Shown: in pieces, positions 50,132 through 54,489 of the stretch
How positions within the stretch are numbered: position 1 is the stretch's first letter
Layout: each line of letters starts with the position of its first letter
Assembly (NCBI GenBank): GCA_007692665.1
Contig: REBP01000048.1
Location: 1 to 54,730, forward strand
Source: Gemmatimonadales bacterium
Lineage (GTDB): Bacteria > Gemmatimonadota > Gemmatimonadetes > Longimicrobiales > Gaopeijiaceae
DNA: 54,730 nt
Reading direction: 5' to 3'
Program-made: the position numbers and the translations under genes
The notes under the pieces: model-generated
Told to the model about the DNA's origin: nothing
Seen by the model: the letters and a program-made list of their open reading frames with translations, nothing else
Databases searched by the model: none

Positions 50132-50160
50132 TTGTCCGGCAGCCCTCGAGGGGCGAGAAT
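50132..50160 (+). promoter_or_regulatory. putative tRNA-Ser promoter
   Basis: TTGTCC (50132-50137), 17 bp, GAGAAT (50155-50160), 20 bp before the tRNA start. Confidence 0.45.
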
Positions 50161-50180
50161 TTCAACACCGAGTCACAGCT

Positions 50181-50263
<83 letters not shown>

Positions 50264-50293
50264 TCCAGTAAATACAAGGGTTTTCAGCGACTA

Positions 50294-50319
50294 GGGCCGC
50301 CTGCGGGGCGGCCCTTTTT
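50294..50319 (+). terminator. strong rho-independent terminator after tRNA-Ser
   Basis: GGGCCGCC (50294-50301), five-base loop, GGCGGCCC (50307-50314), then TTTTT (50315-50319). Ends tRNA transcription before the integrase. Confidence 0.9.
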
Positions 50320-50325
50320 CGTGCG

Positions 50326-50344
50326 TGTGTGCCTATTGTGTGCC
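50326..50344 (+). repeat. direct repeats TGTGTGCC, 11 bp apart, between tRNA and integrase
   Basis: TGTGTGCC at 50326-50333 and 50337-50344, one helical turn apart; a GTGTGTGT run follows near 50376. The position fits integrase arm-type sites or an int operator. Confidence 0.4.
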
Positions 50345-50365
50345 GGAAGTTCTCGGGCGTATCTT
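50336..50365 (+). promoter_or_regulatory. putative integrase promoter
   Basis: TTGTGT (50336-50341), 18 bp, TATCTT (50360-50365). It overlaps the second TGTGTGCC repeat, so a protein bound there could repress it. Confidence 0.45.
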
Positions 50366-50413
50366 GATGCTGCCAGTGTGTGTGTCAGTTTCTCGCAGTG
50401 CGGAGGTGTTGCC

Positions 50414-51538
50414 ATGGCTCAGGTTGTCCAGCGCGGGAAGGGCAGTTTCACGGTCCGGGTTTTTCTCGGCCGCGACCCGGTGAGCGGAAAGCGCCGCTAC
50501 TTCAACAAGACGATTCGCGGGACGAAGAAGCAGGCGGATGCCTACGCGACGCGCCTACAGTATGAGGTGGACACCGGCACGTTTCGAGAGAACTCCGACA
50601 GCACGGTGGGGGAGTATCTGAAGGAGTGGCTGGAGCACAGCGCGAAGCGAAAGGTTCGACCCCGGACCCTCGCCGGATACCGGGACCTGGTGCGAACCGA
50701 GATCCTGCCCGTCGTGGGCTCAATTCGGCTGGATGGCCTGACTCCTTCCGACGTGCAGCGCATCGTGAATCGGATGGAGAAGGCCGGGAAGGCGCCAAGG
50801 ACGATCCGAAACGCGGTCGGGGTCCTCCGGAACGCACTGATGCCGGCGGTTACCCAGGGCCTCGTGCGGATCAACCCCGCACTTGCCGAGAACATCGAGC
50901 TTCCGAAGGCGGTGCGCCGGAGGCTGACGGTTCTTGATAAGGAGGGGGCTCGAGGGTTCGTGGAGGCCGCGAAGGAACAGCGATGGGGAGCCGTCTACAT
51001 TGTGCTCATCGGCTCGGGAATGCGGCCGAGCGAAGCGCTGGGGCTCGGATGGGATGACTTCGACGGGAAGGCGGTCCGGATCCGGCGCTCCATCGTCCGG
51101 GGGCGGAACGGCCGGGACTGGACCCTGCAGGAGCCGAAGACGCCACATAGCCGGCGCACAGTGCCGCTACCGCCCTTCGCGATTGAGGCCCTGGCGGAGC
51201 ATCGGCGCCGGCAAGCTGCCGACCGGCTACAGGCGGGTGCCTCTTGGCCGGATCATGGGTTGATCTTCGTGGATGAGCAGGGGGAGCCCCTCCGGTGGCG
51301 CACCATGGCCCGGCGGGAGTTCTCGTGGATTCTGGAAGAGGCGGGGCTACCCACGATCCGCCCGTATGACCTGCGCCATACCTGCGCCTCCCTCCTCCTG
51401 TCCGCCGGCGTGAACCCCAAGGTGGTGTCTGAGCGCTTGGGGCACTCGACCGTGGCCCTGACCCTCGATACCTACAGCTCGGTGCTCCCGGGGCTGCAGG
51501 AAGAGGCCACGGCGAAGCTCGGGGAGATGTTCGGATGA
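50414..51538 (+). CDS. int: tyrosine recombinase (integrase) of the mobile element
   Basis: 374 aa. N-terminal arm-binding domain (GSFTVRVFLGRDPVSGKRRY), SAM-like core-binding domain (VGEYLKEWLEHSAKRKV to about 165), then the catalytic domain with R204 (GSGMRPSEALGLGW), K242, R321 (YDLRHTCAS; the usual first His of HxxR is Y318), H344 (RLGHST) and Y354 (TLDTYS). Start ATG has GGAGG 7 nt upstream. The stop overlaps the next gene (ATGA). Catalyses site-specific integration, by position into tRNA-Ser. Confidence 0.96.
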   Translation: MAQVVQRGKGSFTVRVFLGRDPVSGKRRYFNKTIRGTKKQADAYATRLQYEVDTGTFRENSDSTVGEYLKEWLEHSAKRKVRPRTLAGYRDLVRTEILPVVGSIRLDGLTPSDVQRIVNRMEKAGKAPRTIRNAVGVLRNALMPAVTQGLVRINPALAENIELPKAVRRRLTVLDKEGARGFVEAAKEQRWGAVYIVLIGSGMRPSEALGLGWDDFDGKAVRIRRSIVRGRNGRDWTLQEPKTPHSRRTVPLPPFAIEALAEHRRRQAADRLQAGASWPDHGLIFVDEQGEPLRWRTMARREFSWILEEAGLPTIRPYDLRHTCASLLLSAGVNPKVVSERLGHSTVALTLDTYSSVLPGLQEEATAKLGEMFG

Positions 51539-52107
51539 TGGACGACAAGGCCGTGCTAGCCCTCGCGGCCCCCGCCGGAGCGGTCAAAATGCGATTCCCG
51601 TCCCCTCTCGAAGAGGCCGTTGAGAAGGTGGACGGTGCTCGGGAGGTGTTGTTCGAGATCATCGCACTAAGGGCCATCGGGGAAGAACCGGGGGTGCTCT
51701 ACGAACGAAGTGACGCCCTGTGCTCCGAGGCGCTCCGCCCGATGCCCCCGGGCTTTCGGGATGAGGACGCGGTGCAGGGCCTCGCCCGCCGCGCGCAGGT
51801 GCTAGGACGCCTGGCGAGGCGGGCAGAAGGGGCACTCCTGGTCCTTGAACGTTTCGGCATGAGGTGGAAATGGGAGGAGGGGTACCCCGTTTTTCCATCC
51901 GGGAAGAAAGGTGGGAGGCGCCCACACGTTTACACGATGCTGGTCAAAGCTCTGGTCGAGGAGATCGAGGGGGCTGAAGGACCGACCCCAGACCTCCCTG
52001 GCCTTCGCACGGCCGTGGCCAAATCGCTAGCCGACTACTTTCCCGCCAAGTACGTCGACACCCGAGCAAATGGGATGCTAGACCGGGCGATCTACCGGGT
52101 AGGGTGA
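51535..52107 (+). CDS. uncharacterised mobile-element protein
   Basis: 190 aa, coupled to the integrase by ATGA. Mostly helical (PLEEAVEKVDGAREVLFEIIAL, LARRAQVLGRLARRAEGALL), then a basic, aromatic stretch (FGMRWKWEEGYPVFPSGKKGG) and a second helical part ending DYFPAKYVDTRANGMLDRAI. No recognised family. Position next to int suggests regulation or accessory recombination, but this is a guess. Confidence 0.7.
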   Translation: MMDDKAVLALAAPAGAVKMRFPSPLEEAVEKVDGAREVLFEIIALRAIGEEPGVLYERSDALCSEALRPMPPGFRDEDAVQGLARRAQVLGRLARRAEGALLVLERFGMRWKWEEGYPVFPSGKKGGRRPHVYTMLVKALVEEIEGAEGPTPDLPGLRTAVAKSLADYFPAKYVDTRANGMLDRAIYRVG

Positions 52108-52361: not shown

Positions 52362-52577
52362 ATGGACAAGCAAGGAAAGCCCCTCGGAACCGTGGAAGAC
52401 CTGGCCACCCGACTCAACGCGCCGCGCCATCGGGGCTACCAACTCGCACGAGAGGGGAAGGTCCCTGGGGTGGTCCGGATCGGTCGGCAGATTCGGATTG
52501 ACATGGACGCGGTAGAGGAATGGATCTCTGCCGGCGGGGACCTGGCAGGCCATGGGGAGTCGGCGGGCGGCGCGTGA
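52362..52577 (+). CDS. excisionase-like HTH (MerR/AlpA-type) DNA-binding protein
   Basis: 71 aa. GTVEDLATRLNAPRHRGYQL forms the helix-turn-helix, then the wing GKVPGVVRIGRQIRIDMDAVEEWI. This is the excisionase-family HTH seen in Xis and AlpA, which helps excision or activates element genes. Start ATG chosen for the excellent TGGAGGAAACA ribosome site; the frame is open further upstream but without conserved sequence. Stop overlaps the next gene. Confidence 0.88.
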   Translation: MDKQGKPLGTVEDLATRLNAPRHRGYQLAREGKVPGVVRIGRQIRIDMDAVEEWISAGGDLAGHGESAGGA

Positions 52578-52792
52578 CCATGGACCCGAACGACGCTGAG
52601 GCGCGGCTCCTTCGGGCCCTGGTGGAGTCGGCCCGGAACGGCGGTGTCGTGCTCTTCCACATGGAGCCTGAGGCCGCCATGCGGCTGGCTGGTGTCATCA
52701 TCCGGGGGGCCCAGCACTCTCCGCGCACGGTGGCGGACTATTACCGGCAGCTCGTGGACCTCTCCCGCCGGGCGAGCGAGGCCGGACCATGA
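52574..52792 (+). CDS. small mobile-element protein
   Basis: 72 aa starting at GTG in a GTGA overlap with the excisionase-like gene; ATG at 52580 is the alternative. Helical: DAEARLLRALVESARNGGVV, MRLAGVIIRGAQHSPRTV, YYRQLVDLSRRASE. No family recognised. ATGA overlap with the ATPase gene. Confidence 0.65.
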   Translation: MTMDPNDAEARLLRALVESARNGGVVLFHMEPEAAMRLAGVIIRGAQHSPRTVADYYRQLVDLSRRASEAGP

Positions 52793-53970
52793 ACCCAAGC
52801 GCCGCAGTCCTCACCCTCCCCAGGCCTCGGCTGATCCCGGAGCGCATCGAGTCGGGTGCGGACTTCATTGAGGCGGCGTGCGCCCTCGGAAGACCTCACC
52901 TTCGCTCCACCCTGGACAGGCACGCCAGCCTTGATCCCGAAGAGCAGTTTGCGGCGGTCATGCAACTGGTGGGGGATGAATGGGACCGGACCCGGAGGGC
53001 GTGGGCCGAAGAGGACGGCACCCTCACGCCAGCCCGGTTTGTCTTCCTGACGGAGGAGCAGGTTCAGGCCCAGGAGGCGCCCGCGCAACTCTTGGACGGC
53101 ATCCTCACCGTGGGAGGGCTCGCTGCCCTGGTGGGGCCTTCGGGGGAGGGGAAGACCTTCCTCGTGCTCAAGTTCGCCCGTGAACTCGCTGAGCAGGGGC
53201 GCACCGTTCTCTACGTCGCATCCGAGGGCGCCTACTCCCTCAGCCCCCGGCTCAAGGCGCTGCGGTCCGTCCACGCGCCCCGGGAGGCGCCCCTTCCGCT
53301 CTACGTCGTGCCCCAGCCCGTGAACCTCATGGATGCGGGGGAAATCGCCGTGTTCCTCGAGGAGGTCAAGCAATCCCTCCCGGAGCCTCCCGCCTGGATT
53401 GTCTTCGACACCCTGGCCCAGTCCATGGTCGGCGGTGACGAGAATCTGGCGCGAGACATGGGCGTTGTGGTTCAGAATTGCAACCGCGTTCGGGAGCTGA
53501 CCGGATCGGCCGTCCTCCTGGTGCACCATACCGGGCACGGCATGGACCGGGAGCGCGGCTCAACGGCTCTCCGGGCTGGCGTGGATACCATGGCGCTCCT
53601 CAAGAAAGATGAGGAGGGGGTCCTCGTGCTGAGCTGCCTGAAGCAGAAGGACATGGCTCCGTTTGACCCGATGCGGTACGAGCTGGTGCCGGTCGGCTTA
53701 AGCTGCGTGATAGGTCCAAGCTCAGGCATTGGACCTAGCCTTTCCGAGGCTGCCGTGGCAGTGCTCCGCTCGCTCGATAGGTCCAGCATGGGCGATGGAC
53801 TTACAAGCACCGATTGGGAAGCTGCATTCGGAGGCCCCCGCTCCACTTTCATGCTCCACAGAAAACGGCTCTATGACTTGGGATACGTCGTGCGAGACAA
53901 GCCCGGGAGGGGCGCCAGATACAGCGTTTCCCCCTTCGGCTCCGACGCCCTGAGGGGGGAAGGTCCATGA
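52789..53970 (+). CDS. RepA-like AAA/RecA-fold ATPase (putative replication helicase) with C-terminal winged helix
   Basis: 393 aa. ATPase core: Walker A GPSGEGKT (116-123), Walker B WIVFD (203-207), sensor LLVHHTGH (243-250) and RGSTALRAGVD (256-266, possible Arg finger). This resembles the RepA/AAA_25 helicases of plasmids such as RSF1010 and of phages. Residues about 315-385 look like a winged helix (LSEAAVAVLRSLDRSS, RKRLYDLGYVVRDKPGRGARY), which could bind DNA. Four GGTCCA-core repeats lie in the 3' coding part and more follow directly. Role in element replication is inferred. Confidence 0.85.
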   Translation: MNPSAAVLTLPRPRLIPERIESGADFIEAACALGRPHLRSTLDRHASLDPEEQFAAVMQLVGDEWDRTRRAWAEEDGTLTPARFVFLTEEQVQAQEAPAQLLDGILTVGGLAALVGPSGEGKTFLVLKFARELAEQGRTVLYVASEGAYSLSPRLKALRSVHAPREAPLPLYVVPQPVNLMDAGEIAVFLEEVKQSLPEPPAWIVFDTLAQSMVGGDENLARDMGVVVQNCNRVRELTGSAVLLVHHTGHGMDRERGSTALRAGVDTMALLKKDEEGVLVLSCLKQKDMAPFDPMRYELVPVGLSCVIGPSSGIGPSLSEAAVAVLRSLDRSSMGDGLTSTDWEAAFGGPRSTFMLHRKRLYDLGYVVRDKPGRGARYSVSPFGSDALRGEGP

Positions 53971-54064
53971 AGGTCCAACGTAGGTCCAATAGACCTCCCG
54001 CCACGATAGGTCCAAGGTCCAACCCCCTATACACGAAGTGTAGGGGGTGGACCGACCGTGGACC
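53709..54064 (+). repeat. GGTCCA-core repeat array (iteron-like, putative replication origin)
   Basis: Copies of (T/A)AGGTCCA(A): + at 53711, 53778, 53960, 53970, 53981, 54007, 54014; - at 53729 (TTGGACCTA), 53796 (TGGACTTA, one mismatch), 54048 and 54059 (TGGACC). Two inverted pairs (spacers 9 and 10 bp) lie inside the ATPase gene; three direct copies at 10-11 bp spacing follow its end, then two more, a hairpin, and two inverted cores. A 7-mer should occur by chance about 0.04 times in this length on both strands. Confidence 0.75.
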
Positions 54065-54164
54065 GGGGAGCGGGCAAAGAGGATCCCGGCACGGATGCGC
54101 CATCGCCTGGTCAGAGCCCCGGGCTGGGCTGGGCCGGAGTGGGGAGCCCGGGGCCGTCCCGTGA
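53967..54164 (+). CDS. possible small ORF inside the repeat array
   Basis: 65 codons, ATG overlapping the ATPase stop (ATGA), the style used by real genes here. The product is Arg/Gly/Pro-rich with no family features and is encoded across the repeat array and hairpin, so it may be only an open frame. Confidence 0.25.
   Translation: MKVQRRSNRPPATIGPRSNPLYTKCRGWTDRGPGSGQRGSRHGCAIAWSEPRAGLGRSGEPGAVP
54022..54048 (+). repeat. hairpin in the repeat array
   Basis: ACCCCCTA (54022-54029) pairs with TAGGGGGT (54041-54048). Inside, CAC (54032-54034) and GTG (54038-54040) extend the stem around a GAA loop after a 2-nt bulge. It sits between direct GGTCCA copies on the left and inverted cores on the right. 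No T-run follows. Confidence 0.7.
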
Positions 54165-54189
54165 GAGAAAACCGGCAGGGTGCGACCGC

Positions 54190-54489
54190 ATGAGCGCCCG
54201 GCGCTGCGCGAAGTGCGGGGAGGTGAAGAGCCCCGAAGACTTCCACCGGGACCGGAGCCGTCCGGACGGGCTCTTTCGACGGTGCAAGGTTTGCCGACGC
54301 CCGAAGGCCCGGCCCGCACCTCCCCCCGGGGGCGGGAGCGGCGCCGTCACCTGGCGTGAAGAGGCCGCCCGCCTGGTGGTAAGGAATGCCGCGGGGACCG
54401 CCATGGTCATGAGGCCGGAGGAAGCGCGGGCGATTGCCTTCGAGATGCTTGCCGCTCTGGGGGGACAAGGGGGGGACAAGGTAGGTTGA
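54190..54489 (+). CDS. small zinc-motif protein of the mobile element
   Basis: 99 aa. Cysteine motif C6-x2-C9 and C32-x2-C35 (RRCAKCGEVKSPEDF, then FRRCKVC), the pattern common in phage proteins and HNH endonuclease N-termini; no HNH catalytic motif follows. A Pro/Gly linker leads to a helical part (EEARAIAFEMLAALGG). Start ATG chosen because the cysteine motif begins directly after it; ribosome site weak. Confidence 0.7.
   Translation: MSARRCAKCGEVKSPEDFHRDRSRPDGLFRRCKVCRRPKARPAPPPGGGSGAVTWREEAARLVVRNAAGTAMVMRPEEARAIAFEMLAALGGQGGDKVG

Follow-up and report, generated by a model that had tools for sequence, protein, structure and literature searches.

The DNA analysed here (the window, 54,730 nucleotides) is the end of contig C100 of its genome and carries one end of an integrated element, the other end of which lies on contig C145. 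The genes and the attachment site in the window are the following:

50180–50267, + strand: tRNA-Ser (tga), the integration target (ARAGORN)
50212–50268, + strand: attL, a 57-bp repeat with an identical attR copy at G000:C145:1738-1794
50414–51538, + strand: tyrosine integrase (Phage_integrase PF00589, 1e-18; Phage_int_SAM_3; phrog_1, 3e-72)
51535–52107, + strand: hypothetical protein of 190 aa, between the integrase and the AlpA-like gene
52362–52577, + strand: HTH_17 AlpA/excisionase-like protein (PF12728, 3e-8; phrog_66, excisionase/regulator, 1e-6)
52789–53970, + strand: RepA-like initiator with a RecA-type ATPase (aa ~100–310) and a C-terminal winged helix (aa ~320–388)
54193–54489, + strand: EndoVII/HNH-like zinc protein, 3' of the array described below (phrog_1035, endonuclease VII, 3.5e-7)

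attL consists of the last 57 bp of tRNA-Ser. The starts of the integrase and EndoVII/HNH-like genes were picked by eye within the open reading frames 50132–51538 and 54058–54489, respectively, and family searches with the 190-aa protein returned no match. Contig C145 starts with the C-terminal end of an HK97-type capsid protein, which is encoded by the last forward gene before attR. Its match to Phage_capsid (PF05065, positions 202–275) is the only one in the genome and, with 20.8 bits, does not reach the curated threshold of 24.2. No forward gene of at least 80 codons that might encode a tail protein is present between the capsid end and attR. The same interval carries on the reverse strand (L004:603-1325) a gene for a 239-aa protein that matches phrog_19960 and phrog_26326, two phage families without assigned function.

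The gene order of the element is thus integrase, unknown, AlpA-like, a small gene, helicase, array, HNH-like, assembly gap, capsid and attR. Several features of capsid-forming PICIs are present, namely an integrase with a specific att site, an AlpA/Xis-type regulator downstream of int, and an initiator gene followed by iterons. Elements of E. coli and Klebsiella with the same helicase family have the order int, AlpA, helicase, (SSB), capsid and head genes, which is the plan of capsid-forming PICIs. Judged by its gene content, the element in the window is a capsid-carrying, PICI-like element integrated at tRNA-Ser, known from its two ends, with its middle falling into the assembly gap.

The ATPase domain of the initiator is of the Walker type (AAA_25, 5e-26). 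An AF2 model of the protein, with a mean pLDDT of 85.7, includes a confident winged helix at the C-terminus and matches the structures of RSF1010 RepA (PDB 1G8Y/1OLO) with target-normalised TM scores of 0.73–0.75. By wHTH alignment, the recognition helix of this winged helix spans aa 351–363. The winged helix is conserved among relatives whose N-terminal domains differ widely. According to the model, the gene product is a RecA-fold helicase of the RSF1010-RepA type, fused to a C-terminal winged helix and predicted to form a hexamer. A reading of the same DNA from its letters and open reading frames (hereafter the sequence-only reading) had recognised a RepA-like ATPase gene, which is borne out, but had missed the winged helix fused to the helicase.

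The array itself occupies 53709–54064 (356 bp), and its parts are as follows:

53712–53736: in-gene inverted iteron pair 1 (53712 on the + strand, 53730 on the − strand), in the linker preceding the winged helix
53779–53802: in-gene inverted iteron pair 2 (53779 on the + strand, 53796 on the − strand with one mismatch)
53961–54021, + strand: main direct iterons AGGTCCA(A) at 53961, 53971, 53982, 54008 and 54015, with an inverted near-match at 53990
54022–54048: GC-rich hairpin ACCCCCTATACACGAAGTGTAGGGGGT, with direct iterons to its left and inverted iterons to its right
54048–54065, − strand: two inverted iterons (54048 and 54059)
Exact GGTCCA on both strands: 53713+, 53730−, 53780+, 53962+, 53972+, 53983+, 54009+, 54016+, 54048−, 54059−

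The sequence-only reading had counted eleven GGTCCA cores. Ten exact copies are present, and two more sites (53796− and 53990−) are AGGTCCA with one mismatch. The array as such is real: in 3000 simulated stretches with the dinucleotide statistics of the window, 356 bp contained GGTCCA 0.29 times on average and four times at most. As a bare word GGTCCA is common (83 copies across the window); all six copies of AGGTCCAA in the 54.7 kb lie within the array. In a pattern search of the whole genome the array was the sole cluster of AGGTCCA, all other occurrences at distances of up to 25 bp being isolated pairs. The two inverted pairs, the run spaced by 10–11 bp (53961, 53971 and 53982) and the central hairpin with direct cores on one side and inverted cores on the other were all found as the earlier reading had described them. 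The DNA of the hairpin and its flanking iterons (54005–54066) has a predicted folding energy of −18.6 kcal/mol (z −4.6).

The array also lies partly inside the gene, as had been proposed. The stop codon of the helicase gene is at 53968–53970, so that four exact AGGTCCA fall within the coding sequence, and all others between genes. These four copies, located in its final 300 bp, compare with an expectation of 0.05, and none of 20,000 synonymous resamplings reached four. Moreover, the in-gene copies are built of the rare codons ATA, GGT, CCA and TCA. It is therefore the DNA word that has been kept here, rather than the protein sequence.

We examined whether relatives carry arrays at the same place. 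Relatives were drawn from 84,980 genomes and from IMG/VR by means of a three-sequence alignment, an alignment of six relatives being too diverse, and 103 deduplicated loci were tested blind. The window protein alone, used as a query against viral contigs, gave no match, and a search for closer Gemmatimonadota relatives returned only the two already known. A locus was scored positive when its densest 7-mer cluster, taken over its full length, was centred between −450 and +250 of the rep stop. This was the case in 54 of the 103 loci (7.0 expected) and, among the strongest clusters (p≤1e-10), in 32 of 38 (2.4 expected). Arrays occupy this position in several phyla, with motifs that differ by lineage (ACTCCAA, GGTGCCA, ACTCCAC, GTGGACA, CGGTACA, AGTTGCA, GTCCGAA, AGTCCCA and more). 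The nearest relatives (L024/L033 and L025/L034), which are about 40% identical, reproduce the layout of the window site by site with the motif ACTCCAA instead of AGGTCCA, as the positions relative to the rep stop illustrate:

L033: −267+, −251−, −199+, −183−, −9+, 1+, 12+, 19−, 27+, 40+, 78−, 90−
Window: −259+, −241−, −192+, −175−, −10+, 0+, 11+, 19−, 37+, 44+, 77−, 88−

The trait of an iteron-type origin, short repeats beside rep at a position conserved among relatives, is thus present. The expectation that related elements would share the array holds for the nearest two (L024 and L025), but in about half of all relatives, mostly distant ones, no array was detectable by the 7-mer cluster test. 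Of the 19 relatives in which the winged helix is clear, nine had either no array or a marginal one by the same test (weak or absent in L028, L030, L031, L035, L036, L041, L113 and L116; marginal in L029), and no array was seen in phage Baka. A cluster test with 8-mers allowing one mismatch is powerless in GC-rich DNA, failing to pick out even the window, and thus carries no information on relatives that lack an exact array.

The copies of many arrays converge on a CCCTTTAGGG-type hairpin. Stems of at least 6 bp between opposed iterons were found in 20 of 44 arrays, as compared to 6.9% of shuffled gaps, and 17 of these 20 stems have a core of the TTTA/TTAA/TATA type. The arrays of E. coli and Klebsiella lack the hairpin and have an AT-rich gap instead.

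Several loci showed peculiarities of their own. In L038 and L037, the in-gene arrays at the end of the rep gene translate to repeated peptides in the C-terminal tail of the helicase (HDSDDSHDSDDS, ESCESCES and VDSVDSVDS). Dense word clusters away from the rep end were observed at L115:4592-4989 (AGGTCGG, 16 copies), L070:7865-8245 (GGCGGCA, 15 copies), L058:9535-9780 (CCGGAAA, 8 copies) and L093:5126-5469 (ACTACGC, 8 copies), and these clusters may represent displaced origins or arrays of another kind. In E. coli O145 RM8995-C1 (L140:2723-3801), an IS3 element located 121 bp behind rep severs most of the iteron array, which makes this locus a natural array-disrupted copy. Lastly, K. pneumoniae pKp_Goe_795-4 (L138), a 17-kb circular molecule recorded as a plasmid, encodes an integrase, an AlpA-like protein, a RepA-type helicase with array, a capsid protein and a tail-tape-measure protein. 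By these genes it resembles a small phage or a circular satellite rather than an ordinary plasmid.

The relatives also bear on the question of which protein recognises the repeats. The ATPases of the E. coli RepA-type PICIs are more than 90% identical, yet these elements have two iteron types: AAGTGGG goes with KH(L/F)xRW helices (KHLKRWLAK, KHFRRWLYK), and AAGTGAG with KN(M/F)xRW helices (KNMRRWLAK, KNFRRWLYK). In Klebsiella, KSFPRWLDK is paired with GTGCGG. A rule built on these loci, eleven in number, by which one residue of the recognition helix predicts one iteron base (His or Lys goes with G, Asn with A, and Gly, Ala or Ser with C), was then tested on IMG/VR loci, some of which are further copies from sequenced enterobacteria and therefore only partially independent; altogether, it holds in 124 of 124 loci of the enterobacterial branch (75 distinct, with 18 distinct helices). 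Mapped onto a tree built from the ATPase part, the residue shows 21 changes and the iteron base 19, and both switch together in all eight independent well-supported pairs (sign test p-value of 0.008). Two pairs of helices differ in a single residue (EMKHFRRWLYK/EMKNFRRWLYK and EMKHFSRWLRK/EMKNFSRWLRK), and in these the base has changed across all copies of the array at once. Beyond this branch, motif similarity and recognition-helix similarity were correlated among 23 loci that span several phyla and include the window, after removal of ATPase identity (partial Mantel r of 0.33, p-value of 0.0002). The code itself derives from the enterobacterial branch, the helix of the window (PRSTFMLHRKRL) being too isolated for a test of its own. 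This covariation of motif and helix in the relatives indicates that the array is very probably read by the winged helix of the helicase encoded by the same gene, and a direct contact between winged helix and iteron would explain it best.

E. coli PICIs offer a precedent for an origin at this place, since directly 3' of their initiator gene lies an iteron-containing region that was tested and works as an ori (PMC6092414). In EcCICFT073, the PICI of E. coli CFT073, a rep-ori plasmid replicated and a rep mutant did not, with an ori mutant included in the same test (PMC6092414). The D5_N/SF3 initiator of EcCICFT073 occupies the slot in which the E. coli RepA-type elements have theirs, and AGGTAGA iterons lie behind it. 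We considered whether the SF3 and RepA initiators of E. coli share a winged helix and iterons; this was ruled out, as their common part comprises the first ~122 residues only. In L139:17242-18996 and L148:6001-7401, which encode a D5/SF3 helicase in one case and a RepA-type helicase in the other, this N-terminal part is 62% identical, and different iterons lie behind each gene. From these sequences, helicase and origin appear to have been swapped together while the front end stayed constant.

PICIs in general (SaPI, Gram-negative ones such as EcCICFT073, and capsid-forming ones) resemble the element in the window in having an integrase, an AlpA-like regulator and a capsid gene near the far end, and in placing directly behind the initiator gene a set of iterons, of both orientations, that surrounds a melting region, a role which the hairpin may have in the window. 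The differences are that the window encodes a RepA/RecA-type helicase rather than the D5_N/SF3 initiator of EcCICFT073, that known PICI origins have an AT-rich region where the window has a GC-rich hairpin with a TA core, that the array in the window is partly coding, and that its host, by its nearest named relatives, is Gemmatimonadota-related.

At the oriV of RSF1010 (IncQ), RepC binds the iterons, RepA is the helicase and RepB' primes at ssi hairpins (PMC4234260). The RepA-type hexameric helicase fold, the iterons and a nearby hairpin are shared with the window, where, however, helicase and putative iteron-binding domain are joined in one protein and the iterons measure 7–8 bp instead of 20 bp in tandem. 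No RepC or RepB' homologue was found among the family hits of the open reading frames scanned in the available 4.5 kb of the element. Given the fused winged helix, the lack of RepC and RepB' hits in these 4.5 kb and the absence of 20-bp iterons, the element does not fit the IncQ replicons. In pRN1 of Sulfolobus, the rep gene is followed by a stem-loop that serves as origin, and the initiator carries a C-terminal winged helix (PMC4234260); pRN1 thus resembles the window in its stem-loop, in this domain and in the site directly 3' of the initiator gene, where the origin of the element would lie. It differs in its prim-pol and SF3 helicase initiator, the binding motifs of which were not identified, and in having no iterons (PMC4234260). 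PLE satellites of Vibrio cholerae encode an initiator named RepA with iterons (PMC7145576). Despite its name this protein is unrelated, belonging to the RepA_N family and lacking a helicase domain. With its in-gene iterons the window resembles the lambda O gene, and with its helicase bearing a C-terminal winged helix it resembles P4 alpha. In lambda O the iterons lie inside the initiator gene between the parts encoding its domains, and the protein binds them via its N-terminal domain and is not a helicase. P4 alpha is a helicase-primase of the SF3 type with a Toprim-like primase, the C-terminal winged helix of which binds short iterons in both orientations, and its ori lies outside the gene.

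An origin is not the only function that such an array might have. It could mainly be an operator, at which Rep represses or times its own operon, along with the genes that follow, while replication starts elsewhere. A location partly in the gene and partly between this gene and the next would suit that role, and the iterons of many plasmids double as copy control sites. However, a search of 53600–54300 with the sigma-70 consensus found no promoter-like site, and the main array is located at the 3' end of the gene, away from a promoter position. Furthermore, the succession of direct iterons, hairpin and inverted iterons is an origin layout, and the syntenic slot in E. coli is the tested ori. 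We therefore regard an operator as an unlikely main function. Still less probable, to the point of being hardly credible, is that the hairpin and the inverted repeats form a bidirectional terminator or an RNA element and that the repeats bind nothing. GC-rich stems behind genes do look like terminators, but this hairpin has no T-run and received no terminator call, and no Rfam family matched at a meaningful score, the best reaching 12 bits. Such an element would also leave unexplained why the in-gene copies run against codon preference and why the motif covaries with the recognition helix.

This covariation, in turn, would be silent on binding if array and winged helix correlated merely as neighbours travelling as one cassette. 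The two are only 60–250 bp apart, and segments are indeed exchanged among E. coli PICI initiators. Joint travel does not, however, account for one residue-to-base rule that extends to single-residue pairs with every array copy changed, nor for the complete agreement of the tree-independent switches, and we consider it very improbable as the full explanation.

The position of PICI origins, the plasmid test of EcCICFT073 and the stem-loop of pRN1 together make an origin the likeliest function of the array. Replication origin of the integrated, capsid-carrying, PICI-like element is, in all likelihood, what the array is, and replication would be expected to fire there; the best reading is an iteron origin partly embedded in the initiator gene. 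The proposal of iterons, a Rep-binding region and an origin made by the sequence-only reading is accordingly the best-supported one, in view of the arrays at the same place, the joint changes of motif and winged helix and the syntenic PICI ori. Winged helices of several subunits would bind the two inverted in-gene pairs and, behind the gene, the five direct and two inverted copies, which are spaced near one helical turn. This would gather helicase subunits on both sides of the GC-rich hairpin with its TA-containing core, which might then open or be extruded and receive the helicase. Host or helper proteins may prime synthesis, and the in-gene sites may also repress the gene.

The rule that iterons lie 3' of rep in PICIs was already known. 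The type of helicase, the in-gene part, the hairpin, the spread across phyla and the residue-base code are new, and in the open-access literature we found no description of the code or of the hairpin. We lean slightly towards the view that these arrays represent one class of origins found across phyla. In this class, a RepA-type helicase would be guided by its own winged helix to lineage-specific iterons that surround a conserved GC hairpin with a TA core and lie in part within the helicase gene, and a simple code in the recognition helix would allow the origin address to be rewritten by few changes, yielding private, incompatible origins. RepA-type helicases are common in satellites and prophages: most of one such gene is present in at least 558 of the 5426 complete E. 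coli genomes, and the literature that we found treats the origins of these elements only in general terms. Because the motif differs per lineage while layout and position are constant, such origins are missed by sequence comparison. With a rule of one residue and one base, the specificity of initiator and origin becomes directly testable, and the rule could tell which satellites and phages are able to co-exist in one cell. If true, the code would predict origin specificity, satellite compatibility and cross-talk with helper phages from sequence.
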